Numbered from the stretch's first letter, positions 1 to 16,394 are shown. The stretch is DNA of 64,000 nucleotides from Halarcobacter anaerophilus (GCF_006459125.1 NZ_CP041070.1:1426001-1490000); one strand, 5' to 3'. The notes: a model not told the origin generated them from the sequence alone. A program made the numbers and translations.

Positions 1-1
1 A

Positions 2-1510
2 ACTACAGCTGCTTCTTCTAAAACAGAAGAGACAAAAGCAGCACCCGTAAAACCTACTCCTACTTCAAAAGAGGTAAGCGGTGCAGGTGAAGTTAAAGGT
101 CATGTTTTAGTTATTGGAGCAGGACCTGGCGGTTATTCTGCTGCTTTTAGATGTGCTGATTTAGGTATGGATACAGTCTTAGTTGAAAGACACGATACTT
201 TAGGCGGTGTTTGTTTAAATGTTGGATGTATTCCATCAAAAGCTCTCTTACACGTTGCAAAAGTTATTGAAGAGGCTGAACATATCAGTCATGCAGGTAT
301 TAAATTTACTAAACCTGAGATTGATTTACCCGGAGTTGCAGCATATAAAAGCGGTGTTGTAAAAAGACTTACAGATGGACTTTCGGCAATGGCTAAAATG
401 AGAAATATAAAAGTTATCCAAGGTACGGCAAGTTTTATTGATGAAAACTCTGTTATCGTTAATCATACAAAAGATGACGGAAAAACAGTAGTTAAATTTG
501 ATAATTGTATTATTGCAGCAGGATCTCAGAGTTCTAAAATGTCATTTATCCCGCATGAAGATCCTAGAATTTGGGATTCTACAAATGCCTTAGAAGTAAA
601 AGAAGTTCCTAAGAAAATGCTTATTATGGGCGGCGGTATTATCGGACTTGAAATGGGTACGGTTTATCAAAAATTAGGTTCTGAGGTTGATGTAGTTATA
701 AGAGGACCTCAAGTTATGACTGGAACGGATAAAGATATCGTTAAAGTATATACAAAAGCAAATGAACAGAGATTTAACTTTATGTTTAAAACTCAAACTC
801 AGGCTATTATCCCTAAAGAAGAAGGTATTTATGTAGAGTTTAAAGGTGATAATGCCCCTGAACCAAAAACTTATGATGCAGTTTTAGTTGCTATGGGAAG
901 AAGTGCAAACGGACTCAAAATAGGTCTTGAAAATACAAAAGTGGAAGTTGATGAAAAAGGTTTAATCAAAGTTGATAAACAAATGAGAACAACAGTTCCT
1001 CATATCTTTGCAATCGGAGATATAGTAGGACAGCCGATGCTTGCACATAAAGCAGTACATGAAGGTCATGTAGCAGCCGAAGTTATAGCAGGGCATAAAG
1101 TATTTTTTGAGCCAAAACAAATCCCTGGAATAGCTTATACTTTCCCTGAGATTGCAACAGCTGGAATGAGTGAAATTCAAGCAAAAGAAGCAGGAATCAA
1201 CTATGAAGTAGCATCATTTCCATGGACAGCTTCAGGACGTGCTATCGCCTCAGATGTATCAGGTGCAGGTATGACAAAACTTATCTTTGATAAAGATACA
1301 GATCAACTAATAGGTGGAGCAATCGTAGGAGATAATGCAGGAGAACTACTAGGAGAAATCTCACTAGCTCTTGAAATGGATTGTGATGCGGAAGATATAG
1401 GATTAACAATCCACGCTCACCCTACATTACATGAGTCTGTAGGAATGTGTGCGGAGATATTCCATGGGAGTATAACTGATTTGCCTAATGGGAAGGCTGT
1501 GAAGAAATAG
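2..1510 (+). CDS. lpdA: Dihydrolipoyl dehydrogenase, 5' partial, with linker from an N-terminal lipoyl domain
   Basis: E3 flavoprotein of 2-oxoacid dehydrogenase complexes, which reoxidises dihydrolipoamide with NAD+. The reading frame is open from base 2, so the gene starts left of the window. The first ~35 visible codons are an Ala/Pro/Thr/Lys-rich linker of the kind that follows a lipoyl domain, then the FAD-binding GAGPGG. The redox pair is in GGVCLNVGCIPSK (codons at about 206-244). A second Rossmann motif, GGGIIGLEMG, binds NAD, and HAHPTLHESVG near the C-terminus carries the catalytic His and Glu. The ATG at 167 is internal, not the start, because the FAD motif lies upstream of it. An N-terminal lipoyl domain is inferred from the linker only. 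Confidence 0.95.
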   Translation, partial: TTAASSKTEETKAAPVKPTPTSKEVSGAGEVKGHVLVIGAGPGGYSAAFRCADLGMDTVLVERHDTLGGVCLNVGCIPSKALLHVAKVIEEAEHISHAGIKFTKPEIDLPGVAAYKSGVVKRLTDGLSAMAKMRNIKVIQGTASFIDENSVIVNHTKDDGKTVVKFDNCIIAAGSQSSKMSFIPHEDPRIWDSTNALEVKEVPKKMLIMGGGIIGLEMGTVYQKLGSEVDVVIRGPQVMTGTDKDIVKVYTKANEQRFNFMFKTQTQAIIPKEEGIYVEFKGDNAPEPKTYDAVLVAMGRSANGLKIGLENTKVEVDEKGLIKVDKQMRTTVPHIFAIGDIVGQPMLAHKAVHEGHVAAEVIAGHKVFFEPKQIPGIAYTFPEIATAGMSEIQAKEAGINYEVASFPWTASGRAIASDVSGAGMTKLIFDKDTDQLIGGAIVGDNAGELLGEISLALEMDCDAEDIGLTIHAHPTLHESVGMCAEIFHGSITDLPNGKAVKK

Positions 1511-1563
1511 TTTTTAAAACTATTTTGAAATAAGTGAACCCATTTTCTCTTTTAGAAGATGGG
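1505..1563 (+). terminator. Two hairpins after lpdA
   Basis: A short AT stem (1505-1512 with 1518-1525) overlaps the lpdA stop codon and is followed by TTTTG. A second stem (1539-1548 with 1554-1563, one G.T wobble, 5-nt loop) follows. Neither is followed by a strong T tract, so termination is plausible but unproven. The second stem abuts the attC-like element. Confidence 0.4.
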
Positions 1564-1628
1564 TAACGTTTAAAATGAGCCAATAAATTGCCGCAGAGTA
1601 ATTTATTGGCTCCACTGATTTGTTAGCT
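1561..1628 (-). repeat. attC-like recombination site (integron cassette element)
   Basis: Read on the minus strand, the element opens with AGCTAAC (1628-1622, R''-like) and closes with GTTACCC (1567-1561, R'-like). Between them is a perfect 13-bp inverted repeat (1577-1589 with 1600-1612, 10-nt loop). The two flanking arms have the spacing of attC boxes. The arm next to the R'' side has one extra base (TGGAGCC against TGAGCC), the asymmetry that sets attC orientation. The stop codon of the upstream small gene lies inside the R'' box, as is usual for cassettes. A plain terminator hairpin is the alternative. No integrase gene is in the window. Confidence 0.55.
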
Positions 1629-1760
1629 ATCTTTTTCAGATTTTGGTGGTTTTACTTTTGGCATTTTCGGAGGGTTTGTGGCTGGTTTTAGACCTCTTTC
1701 CTCTACTAATGGTTGTGGACGTTGACTTCCACTCGACGGTTTTTTTTGATCACTTGACAT
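1623..1760 (-). CDS. 45-residue proline/lysine-rich protein, second gene of cassette-like pair
   Basis: Small ORF with a strong Shine-Dalgarno site (AGAAGGAGACAAAG before the ATG at 1760). It starts 11 bp inside the 3' end of the upstream two-TM gene, so the two are probably translationally coupled. The product is hydrophilic and disordered in appearance, with a C-terminal half made of Pro/Lys repeats (NPPKMPKVKPPK). It has no signal peptide or membrane segment. Its TAA stop lies inside the attC-like R'' box. I do not recognise a family. It could be an accessory peptide, or an antitoxin-like or effector-binding partner of the two-TM protein. Confidence 0.65.
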   Translation of the reverse strand: MSSDQKKPSSGSQRPQPLVEERGLKPATNPPKMPKVKPPKSEKDS

Positions 1761-2262
1761 CTTTGTCTCCTTCTGTAAGATAAAAATTGCTGAAATATTC
1801 ATTAGCAGATTTTTCTGCCTTCTTATGCATTGAACTATTTGTAGGTATTGTAGTAAAAATATTCTTTTTTAATGATTTTTGTTTTGCAGCTCTAATCTCA
1901 AATCTAGCTTTATGAATTTCTGATGCAGTTAATTTTCCACCTGCAATGGCATGCCATTTAAATTCAGCTTGTATCATCAATTCTTCTAATTCATGCAAAA
2001 GAGAAGTATAAGCTTTAATTCTATTTTTATAAGGAAGATATGACTTTATCGCAGATACCACTTGAGATGATGCAATTATTCCTGCCCATAGCCATGATAA
2101 ATGAGTCCAAATTACCCAAGCTCCTATACTTGAACTTGAAGCAATTGCTAATAAAATCTTTAAGCCTCGATCAATGTTTTCAGATTTCTCTAACTGTAGC
2201 TCAATAAAATTAATATGTGTTTTTAATTGGTAAATTTCTTTCCAATATTGCTCTTGTACCAT
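1750..2262 (-). CDS. Two-TM protein with flanking helices (SLATT-like architecture), function unknown
   Basis: 170 residues. An amphipathic N-terminal helix (about 5-33) is followed by two hydrophobic segments (about 35-52 and 56-73) joined by a short Trp-rich turn. A charged helical tail of ~95 residues follows, probably cytoplasmic. This helix, 2TM, helix layout and length recall SLATT-domain effectors, which in other bacteria sit beside nucleotide-signal systems. That resemblance is architectural only; I do not see a diagnostic motif. The ribosome site is AAAGGGAAAA before the ATG. It forms an overlapping pair with the 45-residue gene and lies in a cassette-like unit, pointing to acquired accessory function, for example phage defence. 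Function unproven. Confidence 0.7.
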   Translation of the reverse strand: MVQEQYWKEIYQLKTHINFIELQLEKSENIDRGLKILLAIASSSSIGAWVIWTHLSWLWAGIIASSQVVSAIKSYLPYKNRIKAYTSLLHELEELMIQAEFKWHAIAGGKLTASEIHKARFEIRAAKQKSLKKNIFTTIPTNSSMHKKAEKSANEYFSNFYLTEGDKDVK

Positions 2263-2607
2263 TTAGAGTTTTCCCTTTATTGTTAGATAAGTAATTATTA
2301 ATGATACATTATATATAAATAATATATAAAAACATCTAATATCATTACATTTATAATGTTAAGATATTAAATTAATTAAAGCTTTAAATAGGCTAGTCTT
2401 AATAATATATAAAATAAAATATCCAAATATGAAATATATTATGTTGTGTTATGTTATTGGAAAAATTGATTTTTTAGATATTTAGGTTTTAAATAAATTT
2501 TTATTGTATGTTTTTATTCCCATCGACTTTCTTTTATGAATAAGACATACCATAATTATTAAAATCAAATCACTAATAACCTTTTTGGGTTAAAAATCTA
2601 TTATATA
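2263..2607. other. AT-rich intergenic stretch without a gene
   Basis: About 345 bases, very AT-rich, between the two-TM gene and the methyltransferase, both on the minus strand. It should hold the promoter of the cassette-like pair. I see no ORF with a ribosome site, no tRNA-like fold and no strong hairpin. An isolated GTTAGAT at 2282-2288 resembles an attC R box, but no partner arm follows. Confidence 0.6.
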
Positions 2608-3228
2608 TTATGGTTTTTTCCCTATCAGTAGAAAAATTGGATATTGATATTGACCATATGGCTTTTCTGCAATGCTTACTGTTTTAATTGATAAATCTAT
2701 AAATCCTGCGTTTTCTGCATATTTTAAGAATATATTTTTATCAAAACCAAAATGATACACACCAGTATCTTCTGTATGGAAACTTCCATCTTCTGTTTCT
2801 AAATCAGCTAGAGCTAATATTCCACCATTTTTTAAACTTTCATAAAATTCATTGAATAATAGCTCAATATCTTTTACATGATGAATTGTCATTGAAGAAA
2901 TAATTCCATCAAGAGATTCTAAAAGATGTTTTTCTTTTGTAATGTTGTCAGAAAGAATATCTATTTCACAAGAAAACTTATTATTATCAATTTTCTCTTT
3001 TAATTTTTGATTCATTGCATTTGATATATCATTTGCTATAATTTTATTAACATGATTAGAAATATACTCTGTTAATAATCCTGTACCTGAACCAAAATCA
3101 AGAATAGTATCACTTTTCTTTAGAAGTCTTTTTTCTAAAATACTTTCAGCAATATTTTTTACATTGTCAACTCGTTTATTGTCTGTCTCATATATTTTTG
3201 ATTTTTCATTAAAATAATCATCTTTCAT
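2608..3228 (-). CDS. Class I SAM-dependent methyltransferase, last gene of the PLP/radical SAM operon
   Basis: 206 residues with a Rossmann methyltransferase core. Motif I is ILDFGSGTGLL (about 43-53), followed by an acidic residue in the NDIS segment and a motif IV-like stretch ending in the SSMTIHHV region. It resembles methyltransferase_11/25-type small-molecule enzymes rather than RNA or DNA methylases. It begins 15 bp after the exporter ends, on the same strand, with AGGAG just upstream of the ATG. Its substrate is probably the product of the upstream PLP and radical SAM enzymes; this is inferred from linkage. Confidence 0.8.
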   Translation of the reverse strand: MKDDYFNEKSKIYETDNKRVDNVKNIAESILEKRLLKKSDTILDFGSGTGLLTEYISNHVNKIIANDISNAMNQKLKEKIDNNKFSCEIDILSDNITKEKHLLESLDGIISSMTIHHVKDIELLFNEFYESLKNGGILALADLETEDGSFHTEDTGVYHFGFDKNIFLKYAENAGFIDLSIKTVSIAEKPYGQYQYPIFLLIGKKP

Positions 3229-3242
3229 TTATTCTCCTGTTG

Positions 3243-3863
3243 TTAAAATAAAAGTAATGCAATTCCCATTAATACAAATAACACCCCTGAAATTCTATAA
3301 AAAAGTTTTAAAGCTTCCTCTTTTAGAAACCATTTTCTTGCAGTTTTTGATAAAAAACCATATGTCATTAAAGAACATAAGGAGATAGTCATAAAACTAA
3401 ATGTCATTATAAAAAATTGAGTTTCTATATCCTTATGTTTATCAAGGAATAATGGAAAAATAGCACTAAAAAAAAGTATAGGCTTAGGATTTGTTATAGC
3501 AATAAGAAAGCCCTTTTTAAATACATTAAATTTGTTATAATAGTTATTTAACGTATCATTTTCTAAAATAAATTTAGTTTTTTTATTTAAAATTTGTTTT
3601 ATTCCTAAATAAATCAAATAAAATGCTCCTATAATTTTCATTACAATTAAGAAATTGCCAGATATGAGTAGAATGGAACTAATTCCTATCATCGCTATAG
3701 CTGATAAAATAAATAATCCTAATATATTAGCAAGAGAAGATAAAAAGACTGCTCTTAGATCATAATATAGCCCATTGTTGATTGCTAATAAAATAGCAGC
3801 ACCTGGACTAATAATGGTAAAAAAAGATATAGATAAATAGGCTAAATATAAATTTGTATTCAT
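3243..3863 (-). CDS. LysE/RhtB-family amino-acid exporter
   Basis: 206 residues, with five to six hydrophobic segments and the family N-terminal signature around SPGAAILLAINNGL (about 18-31). LysE/RhtB proteins export amino acids and amino-acid-like compounds across the inner membrane. I chose the ATG at 3863, which has AAGGAAAATA before it and gives the usual MNTNLYLAY start. An upstream in-frame ATG at 3932 would overlap the radical SAM gene and add a charged, non-family extension. An exporter inside a biosynthetic operon suggests that the product, or a toxic intermediate, is an amino acid derivative that leaves the cell. Confidence 0.85.
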   Translation of the reverse strand: MNTNLYLAYLSISFFTIISPGAAILLAINNGLYYDLRAVFLSSLANILGLFILSAIAMIGISSILLISGNFLIVMKIIGAFYLIYLGIKQILNKKTKFILENDTLNNYYNKFNVFKKGFLIAITNPKPILFFSAIFPLFLDKHKDIETQFFIMTFSFMTISLCSLMTYGFLSKTARKWFLKEEALKLFYRISGVLFVLMGIALLLF

Positions 3864-3873
3864 TATTTTCCTT

Positions 3874-5049
3874 TTAATATATTTTATTTGAAATTGCTTG
3901 TTCAAGTTCTTTAGAAAAACAGCCATTAACAAAAGTTTTGTTAACTCTTTTTTCTTGAAGTTTGTTTATTGCAAGTTTATCAAAATCTATTTTATAATTA
4001 TATTTATTGTTCTCTTCACATCTATAGAGATAGCCCAGTTTAGGTTCAAATGTGTTTACACAGCCAACGACAGTACCTATTATATCACCATTTTTTGTCT
4101 CTATTATTTCCTCATTTGGAATTATCGCAAAAAGTTGTAATCCAGCTTTACAATGCTCTATATTGGGTGGATAATTCATTACTTCAACATTATGGGTACC
4201 AAAGTCTTGACTTATTCCTAATTGAAATTTCAAATCAATATTCTTATGAATATGAGAAAAATCATCATATATTCTTTCAATTTCTTTTTTCTCAAGTACA
4301 AGGTTAGGATAATTATTCCCGTGATCATAGAAATTATTAAACCTTAAACTGTCAATTCCAATTTTATTAAAAAACTCAATATATCTCATTAAACTATCTT
4401 TCGAGTTGTTGTGTTTTCCAATAGTTATACCAATTGCAATCCTAAATTTACTAGTATTCTTTTTATTGTAATATTTAATTCTATTTATTACTCTTATAGC
4501 ATCGCTACCATAAAAGACACCTTTTATTGGGTATTTCTTTTGAATATTTAAATTCTTATCTAAAACTCCGTGAAAAGTTATAGCTATTGTTCCGTAATTA
4601 TATTCACTTGCAATATCCAATAAACTTTCATAATTATCAGAAAGTAGTGGTCTCCCACTTGTCCAAGCTTCACCTTTTTCCATCGTTTTTGTATTTTCTA
4701 AATTTTCATTTTCTTTAAAACTTCTATTTCTAGACTTTCCAAATATTTTCATAAATTGTCCATGATATGAGAAACTATCTGTATATCTAGGGTATACATT
4801 ATAATTCTGTTTCTTCAGAGATTTATATATTTCTAACCCAAAATCTTTTGTAAATGTTTTGTTATTTACAACATCATAATTTACAAACCAACAGTGTTGG
4901 CAATTTTGTCCACAAGTATCTGCTCCCACGGTAGTATCCAAATCTAAATAAATATCTATTTCGTGAGGATTTATCTCTGAAAAACTAGTATTTAATGGGA
5001 GGTCTCCATGATAATCATAAGATAGAGGCTGATTCATTTTTGTTGTCAT
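3874..5049 (-). CDS. Radical SAM enzyme with C-terminal cysteine cluster, substrate unknown
   Basis: 391 residues. The [4Fe-4S]-SAM motif is CGQNCQHC (Cys46, Cys50, Cys53; CX3CX2C). Four further cysteines lie in the C-terminal third (Cys300 in HCKAG, Cys330, Cys344, Cys377), suggesting a SPASM/twitch-like auxiliary cluster. The start at 5049 has AAGGATAAAA upstream; an in-frame ATG at 5073 would overlap the PLP gene and lacks a ribosome site. I cannot place it in a named radical SAM subfamily. No obvious precursor-peptide gene lies nearby, so a free amino acid or small-molecule substrate is more likely than a RiPP. Confidence 0.85.
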   Translation of the reverse strand: MTTKMNQPLSYDYHGDLPLNTSFSEINPHEIDIYLDLDTTVGADTCGQNCQHCWFVNYDVVNNKTFTKDFGLEIYKSLKKQNYNVYPRYTDSFSYHGQFMKIFGKSRNRSFKENENLENTKTMEKGEAWTSGRPLLSDNYESLLDIASEYNYGTIAITFHGVLDKNLNIQKKYPIKGVFYGSDAIRVINRIKYYNKKNTSKFRIAIGITIGKHNNSKDSLMRYIEFFNKIGIDSLRFNNFYDHGNNYPNLVLEKKEIERIYDDFSHIHKNIDLKFQLGISQDFGTHNVEVMNYPPNIEHCKAGLQLFAIIPNEEIIETKNGDIIGTVVGCVNTFEPKLGYLYRCEENNKYNYKIDFDKLAINKLQEKRVNKTFVNGCFSKELEQAISNKIY

Positions 5050-5059
5050 TTTTATCCTT

Positions 5060-6199
5060 TTATTTAAATTCAATTGCTATTTGTTTTAAAACTTTTATTA
5101 ATTTTTTACGAGGGAGAGCTATATTCATTCTAAAGAAGCCATTCCCCTCTTTAGAGGAAAAATCGTTGCCGTTTAATAGCCTAACTTTGCAGTTATTAAT
5201 TAATTTTTCTTCGATAATAGTATTGTTGAGAGAGATTTCTCTAAAATCTAACCAAATTAAATATGTCGATTCTGGAATTTTAAATGTAATTTTCGAATTG
5301 TATTTTTTCAATAACTTGTCAGTTATTACTATATTTTTATATAAATATGATTTTAGATCTTGTAGCCATTTCTTTTCTTTATATGCTTCAATAAGCATAA
5401 AATCATTAATTGCATTTACTTTATTGTATAAATTTAAGGTTAATTGTTTATTTACTTTTGATAAAAGAATTTCATTAGTACTAATAATATAAGATAAAAC
5501 AAAACCTACCAAATTGAAAGATTTACTTGGAGAATTGAATGTTAGACATATATTGGAAATTTCAGAAGAAATACTTGCTATAGGGATATGTTTATTTTGT
5601 GAATATACTAAGTCAGAATGAATTTCATCTGAAAATATAAGAATGTTATTTTGTAAACAAAATTTACCTAATTTCTCCAATTCTTCATATGTCCATACTT
5701 TTCCAATTGGATTATGAGGAGAAGAGAATAACAATGCCTTTGTTTTTTTTGTAAGAGAATTTTTTAATTTTTTAAAATCAATATGATATTCTCCTTTATC
5801 TTCTTCTAAAGAATATTCCAAAACATTCCTCTGATTCCTTTCTATTAGATAATAAAATGCATGATATTCAGGAGATAATATTAATATATCATCATTTATT
5901 TCAGTTAATATTTGGATTGTAGAATTTAATGATGATAAAACAGATTGAGAAAATAAAATATATTCTCTCTGAATCTTCCAATTGTGATTTTGTTTCATCC
6001 ATTCCTGAATTGAACTATAAAAATTACAATCTACATATGAATAACCCAATGTTGATTTTTTAAGTCTTTTTATCATTTTGTTAGTTAAACTACTAGAAGT
6101 TAAAAAGTCCATATCTGCAACACAGAGTGGAGTTATACCTTTAGAATTTCTATATTTGGTAGAATTAGTTTTTTCTCTATTAAATGATTGTTTTAACAT
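5060..6199 (-). CDS. MalY/PatB-type PLP enzyme (C-S lyase or aminotransferase)
   Basis: 379 residues, fold-type I class I/II aminotransferase family, MalY/PatB branch. The branch signature PLCVADMDF is at 24-32, SSPHNPIG at 159-166, the PLP-phosphate/ring Asp in FSDEIHSDL (about Asp191) and the Schiff-base Lys226 in NSPSKSFNLVG. MalY/PatB proteins are cystathionine beta-lyase-like and break beta C-S bonds; some relatives are aminotransferases. It is the first gene of a four-gene operon and diverges from the orphan regulator at 6361. Here it may prepare or release a cysteine-derived building block for the radical SAM step. Confidence 0.9.
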   Translation of the reverse strand: MLKQSFNREKTNSTKYRNSKGITPLCVADMDFLTSSSLTNKMIKRLKKSTLGYSYVDCNFYSSIQEWMKQNHNWKIQREYILFSQSVLSSLNSTIQILTEINDDILILSPEYHAFYYLIERNQRNVLEYSLEEDKGEYHIDFKKLKNSLTKKTKALLFSSPHNPIGKVWTYEELEKLGKFCLQNNILIFSDEIHSDLVYSQNKHIPIASISSEISNICLTFNSPSKSFNLVGFVLSYIISTNEILLSKVNKQLTLNLYNKVNAINDFMLIEAYKEKKWLQDLKSYLYKNIVITDKLLKKYNSKITFKIPESTYLIWLDFREISLNNTIIEEKLINNCKVRLLNGNDFSSKEGNGFFRMNIALPRKKLIKVLKQIAIEFK

Positions 6200-6360
6200 T
6201 TTTTGTACCTAAAATAAAATATTTAATAATATTATATATTTTTTGTTACAATAATGTTTCATTTTTACTATATTTTAAAAAAAATATTCATATACTTTCT
6301 TTTTAAATTATATATAATTGTTTTAATTATATATTTAATCATTATATTTGTGAGTAAATT
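6200..6360. promoter_or_regulatory. Divergent promoter region between the PLP operon and the orphan regulator
   Basis: 161 bases of extremely AT-rich DNA serve both divergent units. A 10-base direct repeat, AATTATATAT, occurs at 6306-6315 and 6325-6334 (19 bases apart). The base composition makes chance repeats common, so no operator can be called firmly. The arrangement suits control of the operon by the divergent response regulator. Confidence 0.4.
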
Positions 6361-7023
6361 ATGAAAATACTAATAGTAGAAGATGAAATATTAATTGCTT
6401 TAGAAATTAAAAAATATGTCGAAAAATTAGGATACTTAGTAACTTCTCTAGCAAAAAATTATGATGAATGTTTATCTTCCTTCAAAAATGATTTTCCTGA
6501 TATCATAATTATGGATATTATTCTAAAAAATTCGATTTCAGGAATTGAAATAGCAAAGATTATAAAGAAAATTAAAAATATTCCAATTATATTTTTATCT
6601 GCATATAGTGATGATATTATGCTAAAAAAAGCTTCGATTATATTCCCCGAAGCCTATTTAATTAAACCTTTTAATAGAAATGACTTAAAATCTGCACTTT
6701 TTATTGCAAAAGAAAAATCAGATAATAATCATGATAAGAATAATTATGTTGATTTAAGAGAGGGATATTTTTATGATAAAGTTTTAAATCAAGTTTATTA
6801 TAATGGTTTGAAAATGAAACTTTCAAAAAATGAATTACTTCTTTTGAAGATATTGATTAATGCAAAAGGAGAAATTGTTTCTTTTGAAACAATTGAAAAT
6901 ATAATATGGAGTGATAAAAGTGTTTCAGATAGTGCAGTTAGAACCTTACTTCATAGACTAAGAAATAGATTTAATCATAAAATTATAGAAACTATTCACA
7001 CTTTTGGATGCAAATTAATATAA
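6361..7023 (+). CDS. Orphan OmpR-family response regulator, divergent to the PLP/radical SAM operon
   Basis: 220 residues: a receiver domain (about 1-115) with the acidic pair in VEDE, phosphoacceptor Asp52 in IIIMDII and the conserved Lys102 in LIKPFN, then a winged-helix DNA-binding domain (about 128-220) with SDSAVRTLLHRLRNRF as the recognition region. No histidine kinase is adjacent. Its divergent position 161 bp from the operon makes it the likely local regulator. The two receivers of similar make at 15517 and 45278 have nearby kinases; this one does not. Confidence 0.9.
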   Translation: MKILIVEDEILIALEIKKYVEKLGYLVTSLAKNYDECLSSFKNDFPDIIIMDIILKNSISGIEIAKIIKKIKNIPIIFLSAYSDDIMLKKASIIFPEAYLIKPFNRNDLKSALFIAKEKSDNNHDKNNYVDLREGYFYDKVLNQVYYNGLKMKLSKNELLLLKILINAKGEIVSFETIENIIWSDKSVSDSAVRTLLHRLRNRFNHKIIETIHTFGCKLI

Positions 7024-7358
7024 ATAGAGACAATCTATTAATAGTTTAAAATATAATTTATTATGCTCAAACAGTTACAAAACTTTTCTGAAACAATAAA
7101 TAAACATTCTACTTAAGAAATGTGGGGACAGGGTATAAGGACATTTGATTTTTTTAGTACCATTTTATTGGAATTAGTGTCGTAGTAAATTTGCATCTCT
7201 TTACAGTATAAACTTTGTTGAAGCTGGAAGCTTTGCCTTCAACAACATGTCTGGTTGCTTTTTGTCATACTTTTTTCAATAAAAAAGTATGAAAGTACAT
7301 TTATAAAAACCAATTTTTCAGATAGATTTTTCTTTTTTGTTTTGATATACTTTGGATT
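7024..7358. other. Gene-free stretch with two palindromic elements
   Basis: 335 bases between the regulator and the CHAD gene. No ORF with a ribosome site is visible. It holds a 9-bp inverted repeat, TTGTTGAAG/CTTCAACAA (7215-7223 with 7237-7245), and an 11-bp inverted repeat, CATACTTTTTT/AAAAAAGTATG (7266-7276 with 7281-7291). A run TGTGGGGACAGGG at 7121-7133 is much richer in G than its surroundings and may be left from an old insertion. This marks the right edge of the accessory region. Confidence 0.5.
7266..7291. repeat. 11-bp palindrome, terminator-like or mobile palindromic element
   Basis: Perfect inverted repeat CATACTTTTTT/AAAAAAGTATG with a 4-base loop. It ends 67 bases before the CHAD gene. 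It could be a bidirectional terminator or a dispersed palindromic repeat; copy number in the genome would decide. Confidence 0.5.
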
Positions 7359-8108
7359 ATGAAAACAAAAGTTTTAGCTGATTATATAATTAAAGAATTA
7401 AACAAAGCCATAAATACCTTGCCTAAAATAGATAAAAATTCTGATATAGAAGTGTTGCATGAATTTAGAGTTTCTATTAGAAAAAGCAGGTCTTTGATAA
7501 AGCTTTTTTTCAAAAAAGAAAAAACTATAGAACAAGAGTTAAAAGAGATAGTAACGCAAACAAACACTCAAAGAGAGTTGGATATCTTCTTGATTTCTTT
7601 GGAAAATAAAAAGAAAAGTCAAAATCTTTACTCAAAAATAAAACTTCAAAGAGATAAAGCTTATGATAAAATTTGCAGTGAAGAATTTAGAAATAAATCT
7701 AAAAACAAACTTTTAAATATTATTCAAAAAATCTTGAATTTTGAATATTTTTATACAAATAAAAGTTTAATAAAAACAGCTCACAAACAATATAAAGAAA
7801 GCCAAAAAAGATTTAAAAGCATTGATTCGAGTTTTTCTTCCAAACAACTTCATAAAATCAGGATTGCTTTTAAACAATCCCATTATGCTTTGCAGTTTAT
7901 TCAGGATTCTAAACTAAAAAATGAAAATAAAAAAATAAGAAGATGTAAAAAAATACAAAATTATTTTGGGAAAATACAGGATTTAACCAATCAATTAGAT
8001 TCTTTAAAAGCTATTTATGAAAATGAAGCTAAAAATAAAAAATATTTGAAAAATATAAAAAAAAGGGAAGAAAAATTGACAAAAGCAAAAAAGAAACTTT
8101 TAAAATAA
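7359..8108 (+). CDS. CHAD domain protein
   Basis: 249 residues, almost entirely helical and very basic. Two halves carry the CHAD signature of conserved His and Arg/Lys: LHEFRVSIRKSRSL near the N-terminus (about 28-41) and LHKIRIAFKQSHYALQF in the second half. CHAD proteins bind inorganic polyphosphate through these basic helices. There is no CYTH triphosphatase partner domain, so this is a stand-alone CHAD. It converges with the thioesterase gene, 7 bp apart. Confidence 0.85.
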   Translation: MKTKVLADYIIKELNKAINTLPKIDKNSDIEVLHEFRVSIRKSRSLIKLFFKKEKTIEQELKEIVTQTNTQRELDIFLISLENKKKSQNLYSKIKLQRDKAYDKICSEEFRNKSKNKLLNIIQKILNFEYFYTNKSLIKTAHKQYKESQKRFKSIDSSFSSKQLHKIRIAFKQSHYALQFIQDSKLKNENKKIRRCKKIQNYFGKIQDLTNQLDSLKAIYENEAKNKKYLKNIKKREEKLTKAKKKLLK

Positions 8109-8115
8109 AAGGTGT

Positions 8116-8871
8116 CTAACATTTTTTTATTTTCTTCCAAACTGTTTTACCCGTTGCACAGACTTTATTGCTTCCTTTTATTTGAATAGTATGTATAAAA
8201 GAGTTTTCATCTACATCTTGTTTTGTTAGAGACAAAATTAAATCCCCGTAATGAGCCTCTGAAATAAAACGTCCATCAATAAAATACAAGTAATAATTAT
8301 CTACTATCTCATCAGGTATAGATTCCATAAGCCATTGTAGATATCTAAGATTGTTAACATGTTTATTTGTATCTGTATCATACATATTGACTTTAAACTC
8401 TTTTTTGTATTCAACAGAATTAAGAGGTTCAATTTTATTCGTTATATCATGTTCAAGAGATACTGTTTCACAAGATGACCATTTTTTTAAGAAGTCTGGA
8501 TCTATCTTTTTAGGTCTTCTTTTTTTTATATCATAATATACCCACAATCCTCTGGCTCTGCCTATTATATTATAGTTTTCATCATAAATGATATTTTCTC
8601 TAAATCCTCTGATAGCATGATATTTTGATATCCATGTTCTTATAATTATTTTTTCTTTATAAAGAGGATAACGTTCCATTTGCATTGCTCCTGAAAGTAG
8701 TACCCATCCAAGATTTTCGGACATTAAAGAAAAAAGGTCATGCCCGGCATAATAACAATGCTCAGCAGCAGTCTCTTGAAGTAGAGTTAATATAGAAATA
8801 GTTGAAGCTATACCTAATTTATTCATTTCAAAAAATCTTAATTCAAATTCTTTATCAAAATAGTTTTCCAT
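8116..8871 (-). CDS. Acyl-ACP thioesterase family protein
   Basis: 251 residues with two hotdog folds, as in plant FatA and bacterial acyl-ACP thioesterases. The N-terminal hotdog includes LLQETAAEHCYYAG and the segment WVLLSGAMQMERYP; the C-terminal one carries MYDTDTNKHVNNLRYLQW, where the Asp/Asn and His are typical catalytic residues. It would release free fatty acids from acyl-ACP in the cytoplasm. AGGAG lies just upstream of the ATG at 8871. It is single and not linked to other fatty acid genes here. Confidence 0.85.
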   Translation of the reverse strand: MENYFDKEFELRFFEMNKLGIASTISILTLLQETAAEHCYYAGHDLFSLMSENLGWVLLSGAMQMERYPLYKEKIIIRTWISKYHAIRGFRENIIYDENYNIIGRARGLWVYYDIKKRRPKKIDPDFLKKWSSCETVSLEHDITNKIEPLNSVEYKKEFKVNMYDTDTNKHVNNLRYLQWLMESIPDEIVDNYYLYFIDGRFISEAHYGDLILSLTKQDVDENSFIHTIQIKGSNKVCATGKTVWKKIKKC

Positions 8872-9030
8872 AATAACTCCTTTAATAGGTGAATATATAT
8901 TATTTAGACATAATTGTCAAATATAAAATAAAAAGGCTTTTGAAAAGTAACAATAAACTATTTTATAACCCACATTATCATATAATCCCATATTTAAAAA
9001 ACAAATTAATTTATAAAAATAAAGAGCATT

Positions 9031-10860
9031 ATGATACAACTAAAGAACCTTTCAAAACATTTTGGAGAAAAAACACTATTTACAAATCTAAACTTTATAT
9101 TAGGGCAGGGACAAAGAGTAGGGCTGGTAGGAAGGAACGGTACCGGGAAATCTACGCTTTTTAAACTTATATTAGGTGAAGAATCAGTAGATGACGGGGA
9201 GATTTTGATTCCTAAAGGGTATAAGATTGGAGCATTAAAACAGCATTTGGTATTTACTGAAAAAACATTAAGAGATGAGACGGCATTGGCTTTAAGTGAA
9301 GATGATAAATACTCTATTTATAAAGTCGAAAAAATCCTTTTTGGTCTTGGCTTTAGTCAAGAGGATTTGGAAAAAGATCCTTTATCTTTTTCAGGCGGTT
9401 ATCAAATTCGTATAAATCTAGCTAAACTTTTAATAACAGAGCCAAATCTTTTACTTCTTGATGAACCGACAAACTATTTGGATATTTTGTCTTTAAGATG
9501 GCTGAAAAGCTTTTTAAAAAGCTTTGACGGAGAAGTAATACTTATTACCCATGATAGAGATTTTATGGATAATGTCTGTACTCACACTATGGGAATCGTA
9601 AGAAAAAGTTTATCTATATTAGAAGGAAATACTCATAAGTTTTATGCACAGCTTGAAGCAAATGATGAACATTATGAAAAACAAAAAGAGGCGCAAGATA
9701 AAAAAAGAAAAGAGTTAGAGGATTTTATTGCTAAAAACAAAGCCAGAGCCTCAACTGCTGCGCAAGCTCAATCAAAAGTAAAACTTCTTGAAAAAATGGA
9801 TGAGATGAGCTCTCAAGTTGATGAATCAAACTTAGATTTTGATTTTAACTATAAAGATACTCCTGCAAAAGTTTTATTAGATGTAAAAGATTTGTCTTTT
9901 GGATATACAAAAGATAATATTCTTTTTAAAGATATCTCTTTTTCTCTTAAAAAAGGTGAAACTTTGGGGATTATAGGTAAAAATGGTAAAGGGAAATCAA
10001 CTTTATTAAATACAATAGCAAAAGAGTTGACTGCTTTAAGTGGAACTATAGATTATCAGGTAAGTACAACTTTCGGGCATTTTGGGCAAACAAATATAGC
10101 TCATTTAAATCCAAATAATACAATTATGGATGAAATCTATGTTGCAAATTCAAAACTGCCTGAATCTACTGTTCGAGGAATCTGCGGTTCAATGATGTTT
10201 AGCGGTGATGATGTTAAGAAAAAGATATCATTGCTCTCAGGTGGAGAAAAGAGCAGGGTGATGTTAGGGCAGATATTGGCAAAAGACGTAAATCTTCTCT
10301 TTTTGGATGAACCTACAAACCATCTTGATATGCAATCTATTGATTCTTTAACAAAAGCTATTAAAAATTTTAAAGGCTCTTCTATCATAGTAACCCACAG
10401 CGAAAAACTTCTAAGAGAAGTTTGCGATAGACTAATTGTATTTTCTAAAAACGGTGCCTCATATTTTGACGGAACTTATGATGAATTTTTAGAAAAAATC
10501 GGTTGGGATGAAGAAGAGACAGAAGAAAAAGTAAAAAAAACTCCTAAAGTAAATAAAAAAGAGAATAAGAAGTTAAGAGCTTCAATAATTCAAGAAAAAA
10601 ATAAACAAACTTCTCCTTTGAAAAAAACAGTTGAAAAACTGGAAACCTCAATTATTGAGATAGAAGATCTATTAGAAGCAGAGCAGTCGGAACTTATCCA
10701 AGCTTCAAATCAAGGCGACAACAGTAAGATTATAGAGTTATCTCAAAAAATTTCAAAATATGAAAAAGAGATTGAGCAGAAGTTTGAACTATTGGAAGAA
10801 AACCAGTTAAAATTAGATGAAATTATTGCTCAATATGATAAAAAACTAGAAGAGTTATAA
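9031..10860 (+). CDS. ABC-F family ATPase (YheS/Uup-like)
   Basis: 609 residues: two ATP-binding cassettes without membrane segments. Walker A motifs are GRNGTGKST (about 35-43) and GKNGKGKST in the second half; signature motifs are SFSGGYQIR and LLSGGEKSR; Walker B motifs end in DEPTN. A charged interdomain linker (about 205-245) and a coiled-coil C-terminal tail (about 510-609) match the ABC-F group, which acts on ribosomes in translation or resistance. The specific subtype cannot be fixed by eye. Confidence 0.9.
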   Translation: MIQLKNLSKHFGEKTLFTNLNFILGQGQRVGLVGRNGTGKSTLFKLILGEESVDDGEILIPKGYKIGALKQHLVFTEKTLRDETALALSEDDKYSIYKVEKILFGLGFSQEDLEKDPLSFSGGYQIRINLAKLLITEPNLLLLDEPTNYLDILSLRWLKSFLKSFDGEVILITHDRDFMDNVCTHTMGIVRKSLSILEGNTHKFYAQLEANDEHYEKQKEAQDKKRKELEDFIAKNKARASTAAQAQSKVKLLEKMDEMSSQVDESNLDFDFNYKDTPAKVLLDVKDLSFGYTKDNILFKDISFSLKKGETLGIIGKNGKGKSTLLNTIAKELTALSGTIDYQVSTTFGHFGQTNIAHLNPNNTIMDEIYVANSKLPESTVRGICGSMMFSGDDVKKKISLLSGGEKSRVMLGQILAKDVNLLFLDEPTNHLDMQSIDSLTKAIKNFKGSSIIVTHSEKLLREVCDRLIVFSKNGASYFDGTYDEFLEKIGWDEEETEEKVKKTPKVNKKENKKLRASIIQEKNKQTSPLKKTVEKLETSIIEIEDLLEAEQSELIQASNQGDNSKIIELSQKISKYEKEIEQKFELLEENQLKLDEIIAQYDKKLEEL

Positions 10861-10867
10861 CAGGGTA

Positions 10868-10885
10868 GGTAGATTTTTATCTACC
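10868..10885. terminator. Bidirectional terminator between ABC-F gene and glucosaminidase gene
   Basis: Perfect 7-bp stem GGTAGAT/ATCTACC with a TTTT loop between two convergent genes; it overlaps the stop codon of the minus-strand gene. Modest T richness on either side. Confidence 0.55.
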
Positions 10886-11654
10886 ACACTTTGTTAAAAT
10901 CTTTGTTTTTATAAATATCTTTTGATAGTTTTACTAAACCTGTTTTATTTAATACGGCAGTTACTTTTTTTGGCCAGCTTTTTCTATAGTTAAAAGAGTT
11001 TTTCTTTCCTCCTATGCTATTTATAAACTCTACATTTAACTCTTTTGAAAAAAGAATCTCTTTCCCGTGTTGTTTTACTCTTTTGTTTATTAAGGCTCTT
11101 GCTTCTTTAAATACTTTAAACTTATTATTTAGACTTATCCATTTTGAACAAAAGTCTTCTATGTTTTTAAGATTTGCCTCTTTTCTTCTTTTTTTATAGA
11201 AATCGAAATAATCCAAATCTTTTGTAGTACCTGAAATATTCTGCGGTCTGTAATCTTTTTTCAAACTTTTGGGTCTTTGTTTCCAAACAAGGTCACTTTT
11301 TTTGTACTTTTTTATCTCTTCTTTATTATATAAAACTTTGTAAGGATTTTTTATATTTGGAAGATAAACCGAAGGAAGTGCTTTTTCATCTTTATTTGCT
11401 CCCAGACTTAGAATATTTCCGGTTATTAAAGCAACATATCCTCTTCCGTATCCTGACTCAACACTTGCTATTGCAAGTATGGCTGCAGGAGGAAGGTTAT
11501 ACTTTAAAGCTATATCCACGGTCTCTTTAATCAAAGGTTTGTAAAAGTTTTCTACATGATTATATTTACGATAAGAGAAATTCTTGTCATAAGCAAACAA
11601 GAAATTCAGAAGTGTTAATAAAATAAAAAAAATTCTCATGGTGTATTTTAACAT
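10881..11654 (-). CDS. Exported Bax-like glucosaminidase
   Basis: 257 residues. A hydrophobic signal segment (about 6-21) precedes a mannosyl-glycoprotein endo-beta-N-acetylglucosaminidase domain of the Bax type. The putative catalytic Glu66 is in AIASVESGYGRG, followed by the YVALITGNILSLGA region and a basic C-terminal half. It likely trims peptidoglycan in the periplasm. An alternative start at 11639 would give the signal peptide directly; neither start has a clear ribosome site. It is transcribed toward the ABC-F gene. Confidence 0.8.
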   Translation of the reverse strand: MLKYTMRIFFILLTLLNFLFAYDKNFSYRKYNHVENFYKPLIKETVDIALKYNLPPAAILAIASVESGYGRGYVALITGNILSLGANKDEKALPSVYLPNIKNPYKVLYNKEEIKKYKKSDLVWKQRPKSLKKDYRPQNISGTTKDLDYFDFYKKRRKEANLKNIEDFCSKWISLNNKFKVFKEARALINKRVKQHGKEILFSKELNVEFINSIGGKKNSFNYRKSWPKKVTAVLNKTGLVKLSKDIYKNKDFNKVW

Positions 11655-11675
11655 ATTTTTACAAAGAAGTTAAGT

Positions 11676-12644
11676 TTAAACTATAACTCTGTTTTTCCCG
11701 TTATCTTTAGCTATATAAAGATTTGAATCTGCTTTTTCCAATAGTTTTGAAACACTGTCTCCTTTTTCATATGAGGCAATGCCGAAACTTGCGGTTAGTT
11801 TATGTACTTTGTTGAATTTATACTCTTCTAGGGATATTCTGATTTTTTCTGCTAGATTGAAACTTTGTTGCAGATTTTTATTATTGCAGATAATAATAAA
11901 CTCTTCTCCTCCCCATCTTCCGAATATTTCATTTGTTATATGTTTTTTTATTATATGAGAAAAAGTAATTAATACTTCATCTCCTGTTATATGACCGAAG
12001 TTATCGTTAATCTGTTTAAAATCATCTATATCTATAAAAATAACAGATAACTCTTTTTGTGAAAAGCTTTCAAGATTTTGAAAACTTTCAAAAAGTTTAT
12101 TGTCAATATATCTTCTGTTGTAAATTGAGGTCAATTTATCGGTAATTGCCATTTTATTTAAGATTGTATTATTATCTTTTATCTCTTTAAATTTTTTCTC
12201 CATCTCCATAAATTTTTTTTGTTTTTTTATTTTTCTAATAACTGAGCATAAAGAGTCCAATAAAACAGTATGGTCAATAGGTTTTTGAACAAATTTATAT
12301 ATTCCTATATCTATAAGTTCAATAAGTTTTTCAGATTCTGTGTGTGCAGACATTATAAGAATAAGTTGATTTGGATTTTTTTCTATCATTTTTTTAGATA
12401 ATTCTATGCCGCTTAATCTTGGCATACTAATATCGGTAATCACCAAATCGTAAAAACTATCTGTTTTGATTTTAAAATTTTCATACATTTCAAAAGCGTG
12501 GATGCCGTCTTCACTTTCATCGATACTATAAAAAAAATTTTTAAGCAGTTTTTTTAGTTGAAGTCTGACTTCTTGATTATCTTCGACAAAAAGAACTTTT
12601 AAATCTTTTCCAAACTCCATCATCTCTTTTATATCATGTGACAT
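11676..12644 (-). CDS. Response regulator with GGDEF output (diguanylate cyclase)
   Basis: 322 residues: an N-terminal receiver (about 15-135) with phosphoacceptor Asp71 in VITDISMPR and Lys in KFVQKPID, a short coiled linker, then a GGDEF domain with an intact GRWGGEEFI active site and the metal-binding FIDIDDFKQIND segment. It should make c-di-GMP when phosphorylated. The start overlaps the end of the upstream sensor kinase gene by 11 bp, so kinase and regulator are a coupled pair. Confidence 0.92.
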   Translation of the reverse strand: MSHDIKEMMEFGKDLKVLFVEDNQEVRLQLKKLLKNFFYSIDESEDGIHAFEMYENFKIKTDSFYDLVITDISMPRLSGIELSKKMIEKNPNQLILIMSAHTESEKLIELIDIGIYKFVQKPIDHTVLLDSLCSVIRKIKKQKKFMEMEKKFKEIKDNNTILNKMAITDKLTSIYNRRYIDNKLFESFQNLESFSQKELSVIFIDIDDFKQINDNFGHITGDEVLITFSHIIKKHITNEIFGRWGGEEFIIICNNKNLQQSFNLAEKIRISLEEYKFNKVHKLTASFGIASYEKGDSVSKLLEKADSNLYIAKDNGKNRVIV

Positions 12645-15486
12645 CAGAGTTCTCCTCTTCTTTTAAGATAGGCAACTCAATTGAAAAAATTGCGCCTTCG
12701 TCACCGTTTTTTACTTTTAGATTTCCTTCGCAGTGTTCATTTATAATTATTTTACTCATATAAAGACCAAGCCCGGTTCCGTCCCTTTTATTTTTGGTAG
12801 AGAAATAGGGATCAAAAATTTTATCAAGTATTGCTTCTTTTATTCCTCCTCCGTTATCGGAAATATTTATTATTATAAAATTACCGTTTTCCTGTTTTGT
12901 ACTTATAGATATTTTTCTATTTGATACTCTTCTTTCCGTTAGAGCATCTTCTGCATTTTTAAGTATATTTAAAATAACTTGTTGAAGTTCTCCCGGATAA
13001 GTAAAGAGTTTGCATTTTGAATCAATATTCTTAATAACTATTATTGATCTTGCATCCAATGATGTTTTTATCATAGAAAGAGATTTTTCTATAATATCTT
13101 TTAATTCAAATACAATTTTTTCTTTATCAGATTTAAAAAAGTTTCTAAAATCATCAATCGTAGAAGAGAGATATTGAGAATAGTCCGTTATTAGTTTTAA
13201 CTCTTTATCAAAATACTCTTTATCTACTTTTTCATCTATAATCATTTTTAAAATAAGATTATTTGTAGTAGCTGAAATAGCTGAGAGAGGCTGTCTCCAT
13301 TGATGGGCAATCATAGAGATCATTTCACCCATTTGTGCCAGTCTGCTTTGTTGTATTAATTGTTGAGTATTGATTTCATTTTTCTTAATCTCTTTTTTAA
13401 TTCTTTTTTCAAGATTAATATTCAAATCTTCAAGCTCTTGTTCTAAAAGTTTTCTTTTTGTAATATCCCTGATTACGGCATGGATTACTTTTTTGTTTTC
13501 AATCTCTATTGCAGTAAAAACTATCTCTACCCAGATATTTTCCATATCTTTATTTGTAAGTATCCATTCAAAATTTGTTACGCCTTTTTTAAGAGTTCTT
13601 TTTAAGTAATCTTTTGCCTCTTGGGCAGATAACTCTCCTGAGGGTTGATTTCTAGGAGAAATATCAGTTATTGTTTTATTTAAAAGTTCCTCTTTTTTAT
13701 ATTTTAAAATTTTTAACATAGCTTCATTGCAGCTGTAAAATTTCCCTTCGGAGATAAGTATTACTCCGTCTGCTGCTTTATTATACAAGGTTTCAAATAG
13801 AAGCTTTTGTTTTGCAAGTTCTATGGTCTTTTTTTCTATCTCTTCATTTGCAAGGGTAAGTTCTTTGTTTAGTTTATTTAATAAATAGTGTCTATATGCA
13901 AAAATTGAAGATAAAAGTATTAAAATAATTGCTATTTCCCAAAAATATGTAAAATCGAAAATTGTTTCAAAAGAGATTGTAGTCCATTTGTTAAGAATCT
14001 CTCTGTATTGACTTTTAGGAATCATACTAAGAGATTTATTTAAAATATGAAGCAGTTTTTCATTGTTTTTGTTTATTGCCATATTTATACTGTAAGACAT
14101 GCCCGTATATCTTGAAATATACAAATTTTTCATTGAATATTTGGATATATAATATGAAGCAATAGGTAGAGCTTCCAAGGCAAAATAAGCTTCACCTAAA
14201 CTGACTGCTTCCAAAGACTTTCTGTGTGATTTTGTTTTTAGAATTTTTATACCGGGATTTATTGCTTTTAAAAGAGGAATAAAATCGGAATTTTCTTCAA
14301 TAGCTATTTTTTTGTTTAAAATATCTTTTAGACTGGATACTACAGGTTTGTTTTTTTGAGTGATTATTGCTAATTTGTAATTTAAAAATATTTTTGTAGT
14401 ATTGGCAAAATCAATTACCTCATTTCCGTTTGCAACTGTAGATATAAAATCGCATCTTCCTCTTTTTAAAAAAAGTTTTGCTTCATCCCAAGAGTTAGTT
14501 TCAACAAAATCAAATCTCATATCAGTAAAGTCCGAAATCTGATTTAAAATATCAATCACGATTCCTTTATATAAACCGTTTTCTTTAAACTCAATAGGTC
14601 TTATATCTTTTCTTGTACATACTCTGAAAACTTTTCTTTTTGAGATATAATTGATTTCATCTTTGGTTAAAAAGTTTTTTATGGTTATTGGTTCATGCTC
14701 TTTTGTTCCAAACCATTTTTTCTTTAAATCCAGCATTTCAGAGTCACTTACGCTTCTTTGTGCTTTTTTTATAATCTCTTTTAAAAGTGAATTTTTTTTG
14801 TTTACTCCGATTCTAATAAGACTTACCATTCTGTTATCATCAACATAGTTTGTAGGAATAATATTTGAAATCTCATTTTTTGAAATTATATAATCAAAGA
14901 CATTTTTTTTGCCTATTATGGCATCTCCTTCACCTTTGGATAGTTTTGTAATAGCTTCAAGTATATTATCTGCTAATATCTGTTTTATATTGGGATAATA
15001 TTTTTTTATGGATTCTTGGACAAAAGAGCTTTTTATTAAAATTAGTGTTTTATTATTAAGATCTTCAAGTGAGTCTACTGTTTCATCGCCTTTTCTTACA
15101 TAAATAGTATTTGCTTCGGTGTGGTATATTAAAGAAAAGTCTATCTCTTTTGCCCGTTGTTTAGTTTTTACTATATTTATAATTGCATCAAGCTTATCTT
15201 CTTCTAACATTTTTATAAATTGTTCCCATGTGGGACCTGTTATATATTTAATCTTTATACCAAGTTTTTTTGCCAAAAGATTCATATACTCAACGGAAAA
15301 ACCTTTTGCAATGCCGTTTTGGTTGTAATTAAAAGGGGGATAGTTTAAACTGTTGTTGATCTTTAAGACAGGATGAGCTTTTAAATAGGCTTTCTCTTCT
15401 TGCGTTAAATTTATATTTATATTATCTTTTGCAGTTAGATGTAGTGTTATTATAGATAAGAAGAAGAGAATTTTTAATATTTTCAT
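12634..15486 (-). CDS. Sensor histidine kinase with two periplasmic SBP_bac_3 domains and a PAS domain
   Basis: 950 residues. A signal peptide (1-19) is followed by two tandem type-3 solute-binding-like domains (about 25-260 and 270-500), a transmembrane helix (about 510-530), a PAS domain (about 560-680), coiled coil, HisKA with MIAHQWRQPLSAI and a HATPase_c domain with NILKNAED, DNGGGI and GTGLGLYMSK. The layout is BvgS/EvgS-like in its sensory half but lacks the C-terminal relay domains. Ligands of such domains are amino acids or nicotinate-like compounds. The downstream receiver-GGDEF overlaps it and is the probable partner, with the OmpR-type gene upstream a second one. Confidence 0.93.
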   Translation of the reverse strand: MKILKILFFLSIITLHLTAKDNININLTQEEKAYLKAHPVLKINNSLNYPPFNYNQNGIAKGFSVEYMNLLAKKLGIKIKYITGPTWEQFIKMLEEDKLDAIINIVKTKQRAKEIDFSLIYHTEANTIYVRKGDETVDSLEDLNNKTLILIKSSFVQESIKKYYPNIKQILADNILEAITKLSKGEGDAIIGKKNVFDYIISKNEISNIIPTNYVDDNRMVSLIRIGVNKKNSLLKEIIKKAQRSVSDSEMLDLKKKWFGTKEHEPITIKNFLTKDEINYISKRKVFRVCTRKDIRPIEFKENGLYKGIVIDILNQISDFTDMRFDFVETNSWDEAKLFLKRGRCDFISTVANGNEVIDFANTTKIFLNYKLAIITQKNKPVVSSLKDILNKKIAIEENSDFIPLLKAINPGIKILKTKSHRKSLEAVSLGEAYFALEALPIASYYISKYSMKNLYISRYTGMSYSINMAINKNNEKLLHILNKSLSMIPKSQYREILNKWTTISFETIFDFTYFWEIAIILILLSSIFAYRHYLLNKLNKELTLANEEIEKKTIELAKQKLLFETLYNKAADGVILISEGKFYSCNEAMLKILKYKKEELLNKTITDISPRNQPSGELSAQEAKDYLKRTLKKGVTNFEWILTNKDMENIWVEIVFTAIEIENKKVIHAVIRDITKRKLLEQELEDLNINLEKRIKKEIKKNEINTQQLIQQSRLAQMGEMISMIAHQWRQPLSAISATTNNLILKMIIDEKVDKEYFDKELKLITDYSQYLSSTIDDFRNFFKSDKEKIVFELKDIIEKSLSMIKTSLDARSIIVIKNIDSKCKLFTYPGELQQVILNILKNAEDALTERRVSNRKISISTKQENGNFIIINISDNGGGIKEAILDKIFDPYFSTKNKRDGTGLGLYMSKIIINEHCEGNLKVKNGDEGAIFSIELPILKEEENSDVT

Positions 15487-15516
15487 AAATTAATCTTTTG
15501 TGGTGTAATTTTAAAT

Positions 15517-16251
15517 TTAATTTTTTTTATATTTTAATTTGTATCCATGTCCGTAGATAGATTCAAATAGATCAAAATCAAGTTTAGTTTTTAGTCTCGA
15601 CATAAGATTTCTCACTCTTTTAGTATTTGAAGTTATATCTCCGAATATATATATTTCAATATCATCATAACTTTTTAAAGCAGTTTTAGTATTTGAAAAG
15701 AGTCTAAAAAGTTTTAATTCCGATTTTGTAAGTTTTACTATCTCTTCATTTTTATAAAGAGTATTTTTTTCACTATTCCAAATAAAACCGTGTTCTAAAA
15801 CTAAAATATGTTCGTTTAAATAACTTAAATCCTCTTTTTCTATTAGTTTTTCCAAGGAGTTTGAAATTTGTTCGATATTATATGGTTTTAGTATATATCC
15901 TACAATACCCGCATCAATAGTTTTTAAAAAATAGTCTGTTCTACTGTGGGCAGAAAAGATTAGAATAGGTATTTTTTTATCAAATTCCCGTATTTTATTT
16001 ATCATCGAAATACCGTCAATTTCAGGCATCTCTATATCTGTGATAATTAAATCAAAAGAAGTTGATTCATATTTGTTTCTCTCTTTAAAAAGAGTCAGTC
16101 CTTCATTTCCGTTTGTTCCTACTTCAATATCTTCAAAAAAAAGATTTAGCATTTTAAGAGTTTGGTTTCTTACATCGACATTATCTTCAAGATACAATAC
16201 GCTTAATTTCTTTGTAATATTAATAATACTTTTTAATCTATTTTGATCCAT
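15517..16251 (-). CDS. OmpR-family response regulator of the sensor kinase locus
   Basis: 244 residues: a receiver (about 15-130) with phosphoacceptor Asp72 in LIITDIEMPE and Lys in GYILKPYN, then a winged-helix domain (about 145-244) with the recognition segment ITSNTKRVRNLMSRLKTKL. It is the first gene of a three-gene minus-strand locus, 30 bp before the double-SBP kinase. One kinase with two receivers suggests a split output: gene expression here and c-di-GMP through the third gene. Confidence 0.9.
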   Translation of the reverse strand: MDQNRLKSIINITKKLSVLYLEDNVDVRNQTLKMLNLFFEDIEVGTNGNEGLTLFKERNKYESTSFDLIITDIEMPEIDGISMINKIREFDKKIPILIFSAHSRTDYFLKTIDAGIVGYILKPYNIEQISNSLEKLIEKEDLSYLNEHILVLEHGFIWNSEKNTLYKNEEIVKLTKSELKLFRLFSNTKTALKSYDDIEIYIFGDITSNTKRVRNLMSRLKTKLDFDLFESIYGHGYKLKYKKN

Positions 16252-16343
16252 TAGAGTTTGACCTTCTTATAGCTGGAAAATGAGTCTTGTAGTAAAGTTA
16301 AAACTAATATGTAATGTTATTAAAAAAAAGTTTTAAAGTAAGT

Positions 16344-16371: not shown

Positions 16372-16394
16372 TTATTTTGCTACTTGAAGTAACA

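Follow-up and report, generated by a model that had tools for sequence, protein, structure and literature searches.

What do four tightly packed genes in the genome of Halarcobacter anaerophilus make, and do they form a pathway at all? The genes lie in a 64,000-nucleotide stretch (positions 1426001–1490000 of NZ_CP041070.1, the 3.0 Mb single-contig genome GCF_006459125.1; hereafter the window) and encode a PatB-type C–S lyase dependent on pyridoxal 5′-phosphate (PLP), a radical S-adenosylmethionine (SAM) enzyme, a LysE-type exporter, and a SAM-dependent methyltransferase. An initial annotation of the window had described them as one minus-strand operon with short gaps, facing a divergent OmpR-type regulator without an adjacent kinase and lacking a precursor-peptide gene, and had proposed an exported, amino acid-derived, perhaps sulfur-containing product. 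The layout is borne out, with intergenic gaps of 10, 10, and 14 bp, and the presence of both a C–S lyase and an exporter supports the idea of such a product. Very probably, the operon encodes a compact nonribosomal pathway for producing and exporting a modified amino acid, and it is one branch of a scattered family of gene clusters that combine a radical SAM enzyme, a C–S lyase, and an exporter.

The annotation had also taken each protein family in the operon to be a known one, which does not hold for the radical SAM protein. It matches no Pfam or NCBIfam model, and sequence searches of the Protein Data Bank with the protein or its profile returned only noise. The radical SAM model PF04055 fails to match the window protein, and its best match among the relatives described below has E = 0.036 (14.7 bits, cutoff 29.5); this shows that the sequence is divergent and is not, alone, evidence against membership in the superfamily. 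We assign the protein to the superfamily because of its CX3CX2C motif, its predicted fold, and its conserved relatives. The motif (C46, C50, and C53) and three C-terminal cysteines (C300, C330, and C377) are invariant in 16/16 full-length sequences, which have 124 invariant columns over about 391 positions, and a segment near position 130 (TSGRPLL), on direct reading, may resemble the SAM-binding GGEP motif. The predicted model (predicted local distance difference test, pLDDT, 66; predicted template modeling score 0.65) has DesII, anSME, SuiB, PqqE, ChlB, and MoaA as its top fold matches, with Z of 9–11 over 250–280 residues. It supports a radical SAM fold whose C-terminal part is twitch/SPASM-like, at low confidence near the cysteines; the twitch-like fold matches and the three invariant cysteines there are accompanied by no match to a SPASM or twitch sequence model. 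The family is thus far undescribed, and its existence is well supported.

This family is sporadically distributed. The gene is present in one copy in H. anaerophilus and was found in 1/397 Campylobacterota genomes searched, this one only. Relatives with 46–50% identity occur in Streptomyces, Photorhabdus, the Providencia plasmid pR33-1 (48.6% identity in the protein search), another Morganellaceae genome, and a myxobacterium, and in truncated form on an Enterobacter plasmid. Five Streptomyces, Photorhabdus luminescens DSM 3368, and Citreicoccus inhibens came from a scan of contigs with only two peptide patterns, which makes the count of relatives a minimum. Whole-genome searches, whose counts each include the genome at the search center, recovered the gene from 8/344 genomes of the Streptomyces order, 1/346 of the Photorhabdus order, 2/169 of the Photorhabdus family, and 1/147 of the myxobacterial class. 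No relatives were found in viral contigs, nor any DNA-level matches in E. coli genomes. Phylogenetically, the window protein groups with those of Photorhabdus and Providencia (support 94/94), all on long branches. Such a pattern is as expected for specialized-metabolism genes that move horizontally. On the Enterobacter plasmid, the truncated gene lies beside transposase genes (positions 6707–8411 of locus L003), and the adjoining sulfurtransferase and major facilitator superfamily (MFS) genes are still open.

Each full-length relative is part of a compact cluster that also encodes a PLP-dependent C–S lyase, an MFS exporter, and either one ATP-grasp ligase or two; a sulfurtransferase is usually present as well. 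Photorhabdus and Providencia clusters comprise the radical SAM gene, an ATP-grasp ligase, an MFS exporter, and a MalY/PatB-type lyase. In Streptomyces the usual order is ATP-grasp 1, radical SAM, ATP-grasp 2, 3-mercaptopyruvate sulfurtransferase (MST), MFS, and a MetC-type lyase, and the flanks beyond these genes are not common to the clusters; ATP-grasp 1 is not nearby in S. morookaense or in Citreicoccus, whose cluster consists of radical SAM, ATP-grasp, sulfurtransferase, MFS, and MetC-type genes. The other Morganellaceae genome has the radical SAM, sulfurtransferase, and MFS genes with ATP-grasp 2 and a MetC-like lyase divergent to them; within positions 7856–18377 of locus L075, this cluster lies a few kb from genes that by eye look like those of type VI secretion (16266–18377). 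The Enterobacter plasmid has the radical SAM fragment, sulfurtransferase, and MFS. The sulfurtransferase is missing from the window, Photorhabdus, Providencia, and one Streptomyces cluster; those checked have an intact MST-type loop, CGSGVTA. The ATP-grasp ligases, which have no counterpart in the window operon, resemble BacD, DdaF, and L-amino acid ligases, pointing to amino acids as the probable substrates.

Because the same trio recurs in the cluster of every full-length relative examined, as it does in the window, the constant core is the radical SAM enzyme, the C–S lyase, and the exporter. The exact four-gene combination singled out in the annotation was not found elsewhere, whereas this core recurs. 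Nor did the combination match a named pathway in the literature searched, from which most subscription journals were out of reach. A ribosomally synthesized and post-translationally modified peptide (RiPP) pathway was rejected, as the clusters have no precursor open reading frame (ORF) in common: across 12 clusters compared, no small ORF had matches in more than three other clusters, and no convincing precursor-like small ORF was seen near the window operon, in agreement with the annotation.

The lyases appear to have been taken from different sources, namely MetC type, MalY/PatB type, and a PatB like that of the genus itself. The window enzyme is, by predicted activity, a MalY/PatB-type C–S β-lyase: it scores 348.8 bits with TIGR04350 (cutoff 340), its closest solved relatives are C–S lyases and the cystathionine β-lyase PatB, and the MalY-family active-site residues checked are retained, including the PLP lysine. 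Two further PatB-type genes are carried by the same genome (38% and 33% identity), and 15/15 other genomes of the genus have one (39–43%). In the tree, the window protein joins the genus's own type through a long branch; a clade uniting it with the Photorhabdus and Providencia cluster enzymes is moderately rejected (approximately unbiased test, p-AU = 0.029). The Streptomyces and Citreicoccus cluster lyases are of MetC type (TIGR01324 above cutoff) and have proteobacterial MetC as their closest homologs (up to 57%). They retain Y56, R58, Y111, D185, K210, and R372 (E. coli numbering), have F at position 59, and have lost E235. Because R59 and E235 of the E. coli enzyme are lost and the catalytic residues kept, these changes suggest a substrate other than cystathionine; the positions compared are those taken to form the E. 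coli MetC pocket, and some noncluster homologs also vary at them. Since the lyase families differ and C–S lyase activity is common to them, the activity itself would be what the pathway needs.

Where relatives have an MFS exporter, the window has LysE (PF01810, E = 2.8e-29, 102.4 bits, cutoff 25.6), with a below-cutoff match to the homoserine/threonine efflux subfamily. The methyltransferase (PF08241, E = 5.6e-16) and the regulator (Response_reg and Trans_reg_C domains), both counted with the set in the annotation, are indeed present in the window but are missing from the relatives' clusters. Homologs of the methyltransferase, up to 61% identical, occur in 120/377 Campylobacterota genomes (E 1e-15); neither of the two other listed genomes from the same genus has one, and the nine loci inspected have unrelated contexts with no radical SAM, LysE, or PatB gene. 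As the family is widespread without the radical SAM gene and missing from the relatives' clusters, the methyltransferase was probably recruited locally. The regulator is likewise a local addition, since no OmpR/PhoB-type regulator was seen in those clusters; it may control the operon. Members of the methyltransferase family are about 200 aa long, and one Campylobacterota genome has three copies in tandem.

How might these parts work together? In the scheme that we propose, the radical SAM enzyme would activate a C–H bond in its substrate, a free amino acid or a comparable small molecule, and couple to it the thiol of cysteine, possibly held on a three-cysteine auxiliary [4Fe–4S] cluster; such a cluster would leave one iron site open, as in MoaA. 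The PatB-type lyase would then β-eliminate the cysteine backbone, yielding the thiol together with pyruvate and ammonia, the methyltransferase would cap the thiol as an S-methyl group, and LysE would export the product. In the relatives' version, a small peptide containing the modified amino acid would be assembled by ATP-grasp ligases and leave through the MFS transporter, and the 3-mercaptopyruvate sulfurtransferase would assist in sulfur handling. The complete chain from C–S bond formation to export is a tentative proposal, to which we give somewhat less than an even chance. More cautiously still, we suggest that this radical SAM family acts on a free amino acid and not on a peptide and, with its recruited C–S lyases, founds a new class of nonribosomal sulfur amino acid or small-peptide products common to Actinomycetota, Myxococcota, Enterobacterales, and one Campylobacterota species.

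Several observations weigh against the proposed scheme. It leaves the role of the relatives' sulfurtransferase unexplained, and the window has no such gene; the radical SAM model is only moderately confident, with pLDDT below 50 in the cysteine regions, and among its best fold matches are enzymes of other chemistry; the methyltransferase, as a member of a general Campylobacterota family, may act on something other than a thiol; and the lyase could be protective instead of biosynthetic. This last idea is the main rival. The radical SAM enzyme would make an antimetabolite amino acid directed against cystathionine β-lyase or related PLP enzymes of methionine and cysteine metabolism, an insensitive or destroying lyase would shield the producer, and the exporter would remove the compound. 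Recruitment of one activity from different lyase families is what a replaceable target or detoxifier would look like, dipeptide-type ligases and exporters would suit delivery of an antimetabolite, and the window PatB is an extra copy in a genome already holding two others. A plain target copy should, however, keep the cystathionine-binding residues, and the cluster MetC pockets are altered relative to the housekeeping enzymes, and the branch of the window PatB is long and divergent; we regard self-protection as unlikely, if worth serious attention. In its simplest form, with the cluster MetC as a duplicated target, it is weakened by the pocket changes, subject to the two qualifications given for that comparison.

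Two other chemistries appear improbable to a similar degree. In one, cysteine or cystine would yield sulfane sulfur through the lyase, together with the sulfurtransferase where present, and the radical SAM enzyme would insert this sulfur by way of an auxiliary cluster, either sacrificial or persulfidated, in the manner of BioB, LipA, and MiaB. The intact loop of the sulfurtransferases and the three C-terminal cysteines, on which an auxiliary cluster could sit, are in its favor, but the gene sets of the window, Photorhabdus, Providencia, and one Streptomyces do without a sulfurtransferase. The other is free of sulfur: the radical SAM enzyme would carry out epimerization, C–C bond formation, desaturation, or ring closure, and the PLP enzyme transamination, decarboxylation, or cyclization. 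PatB-like folds are capable of other chemistry (the guanitoxin enzyme GntC against the window PatB gives 139 bits, cutoff 415), and the radical SAM fold class includes epimerases and decarboxylases; however, what MetC and MalY/PatB families have in common above any other reaction is C–S β-lyase chemistry, and many of the clusters carry sulfurtransferase genes. Finally, four unrelated genes might be adjacent by chance in an AT-rich accessory stretch, which would fit a methyltransferase family found alone elsewhere and an accessory CHAD-domain neighbor. A single strand with gaps of 10–14 bp and recurrence of the core in enterobacteria, Streptomyces, and a myxobacterium make this very improbable.

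The enzyme classes of the individual parts and compact clusters for amino acid-derived metabolites are known, and the radical SAM family has no model in the libraries used. It is a conserved enzyme family that spans Campylobacterota, Actinomycetota, Myxococcota, and Gammaproteobacteria, and its clusters, self-contained and four to six genes in size, are a tractable target for natural-product discovery. These clusters are likely to be overlooked by rules based on core enzymes because they contain no polyketide synthase or nonribosomal peptide synthetase genes and no precursor peptide. Repeated recruitment of C–S lyases from different families points to one particular reaction and gives a concrete product prediction, and pathways for amino acid-type natural products would be extended to Campylobacterota.

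Coordinates of the operon and its surroundings are given in Table 1. Gene boundaries follow ATG starts with A/G-rich ribosome-binding sites close by; longer alternatives from TTG (5073 for the radical SAM gene and 3932 for LysE) would overlap the preceding gene and are unlikely. Both promoters probably lie in the intergenic region between operon and regulator, where promoter-like matches are no commoner than in shuffled sequence.

Table 1. Operon, divergent regulator, and the region between them (positions counted from the first nucleotide of the window)
Feature	Position	Strand	Details
PatB-type C–S lyase, first gene	6199–5060	minus	379 aa, ATG start
Radical SAM enzyme, second gene	5049–3874	minus	391 aa, ATG 5049
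LysE/RhtB-type exporter, third gene	3863–3243	minus	206 aa, ATG 3863
Class I SAM-dependent methyltransferase, fourth gene	3228–2608	minus	206 aa, ATG start
Intergenic region, operon versus divergent regulator	6200–6360	no strand	gene layout
OmpR/PhoB-type response regulator without adjacent kinase	6361–7023	plus	PF00072 + PF00486

The stretch is very AT-rich, as the annotation had stated: G+C content is 24–28% in the operon genes and 22% in the regulator and the CHAD gene, against 37% in lpdA and 29% in the window. The adjoining CHAD-domain gene (7359–8108, plus strand) is missing from all 15 other genomes of the genus, so an empty site could not be defined by comparison at this gene; the accessory stretch may extend past the operon to include it. 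There are no tRNA genes in the 64-kb window and no Rfam matches in positions 1–12000. Between the regulator and the CHAD gene, positions 7110–7310 contain two hairpins (e.g., GTTGAAGGCAAAGCTTCCAGCTTCAAC); this stretch is unique in the window, has no Rfam match, and overall folds no better than shuffles. Adjoining lpdA, a 170-aa protein (1750–2262, minus strand) has a weak match to the NCBIfam model SLATT_1 (23.3 bits, below the cutoff of 41); SLATT-domain membrane proteins are a class tied to bacterial conflict systems. Farther off (11676–16251, minus strand), a large sensor kinase (12634–15486), which carries periplasmic binding domains, has, by eye, a response regulator on each side, one of the two being OmpR-like; this group of genes lies 5 kb and more from the operon's orphan regulator.

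Among known systems, the PatB/MalY and MetC C–S lyases are alike in that the cluster enzymes keep their active-site residues, and differ in that the window PatB is a long branch and the distal pocket of the cluster MetC type is changed. SPASM/twitch RiPP enzymes (SuiB, PqqE, anSME, and sactisynthases) are the nearest fold matches of the radical SAM model (Z about 9–11), but no sequence relationship was detected, and the family has only three invariant C-terminal cysteines and no conserved precursor. Like the bacilysin (BacD) and dapdiamide (DdaF) pathways, the relatives' clusters join a nonribosomal amino acid-modifying enzyme to one or more ATP-grasp L-amino acid ligases and an MFS transporter; unlike them, the window has no ATP-grasp gene, the warhead chemistry differs, and the relatives' ligases score far under the BacD and DdaF cutoffs. 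In lincomycin biosynthesis, the PLP enzyme LmbF converts an S-cysteinyl intermediate into a thiol by β-elimination, and S-methylation of that thiol follows, presumably through LmbG (PMC5518657, PMC11794154); the proposed scheme follows the same order, whereas the lincomycin substrate is a sugar, its cysteine is derived from mycothiol, and the LmbF/LmbG segment has no radical SAM step. In the ergothioneine pathway, EgtB is a nonheme iron enzyme and not a radical SAM enzyme, and C–S bond formation by the window operon is a proposal only, but the logic is alike: oxidative C–S bond formation by EgtB is followed by a PLP-dependent C–S lyase, EgtE, that leaves sulfur on the product, an established route to net sulfur transfer (PMC4493562).

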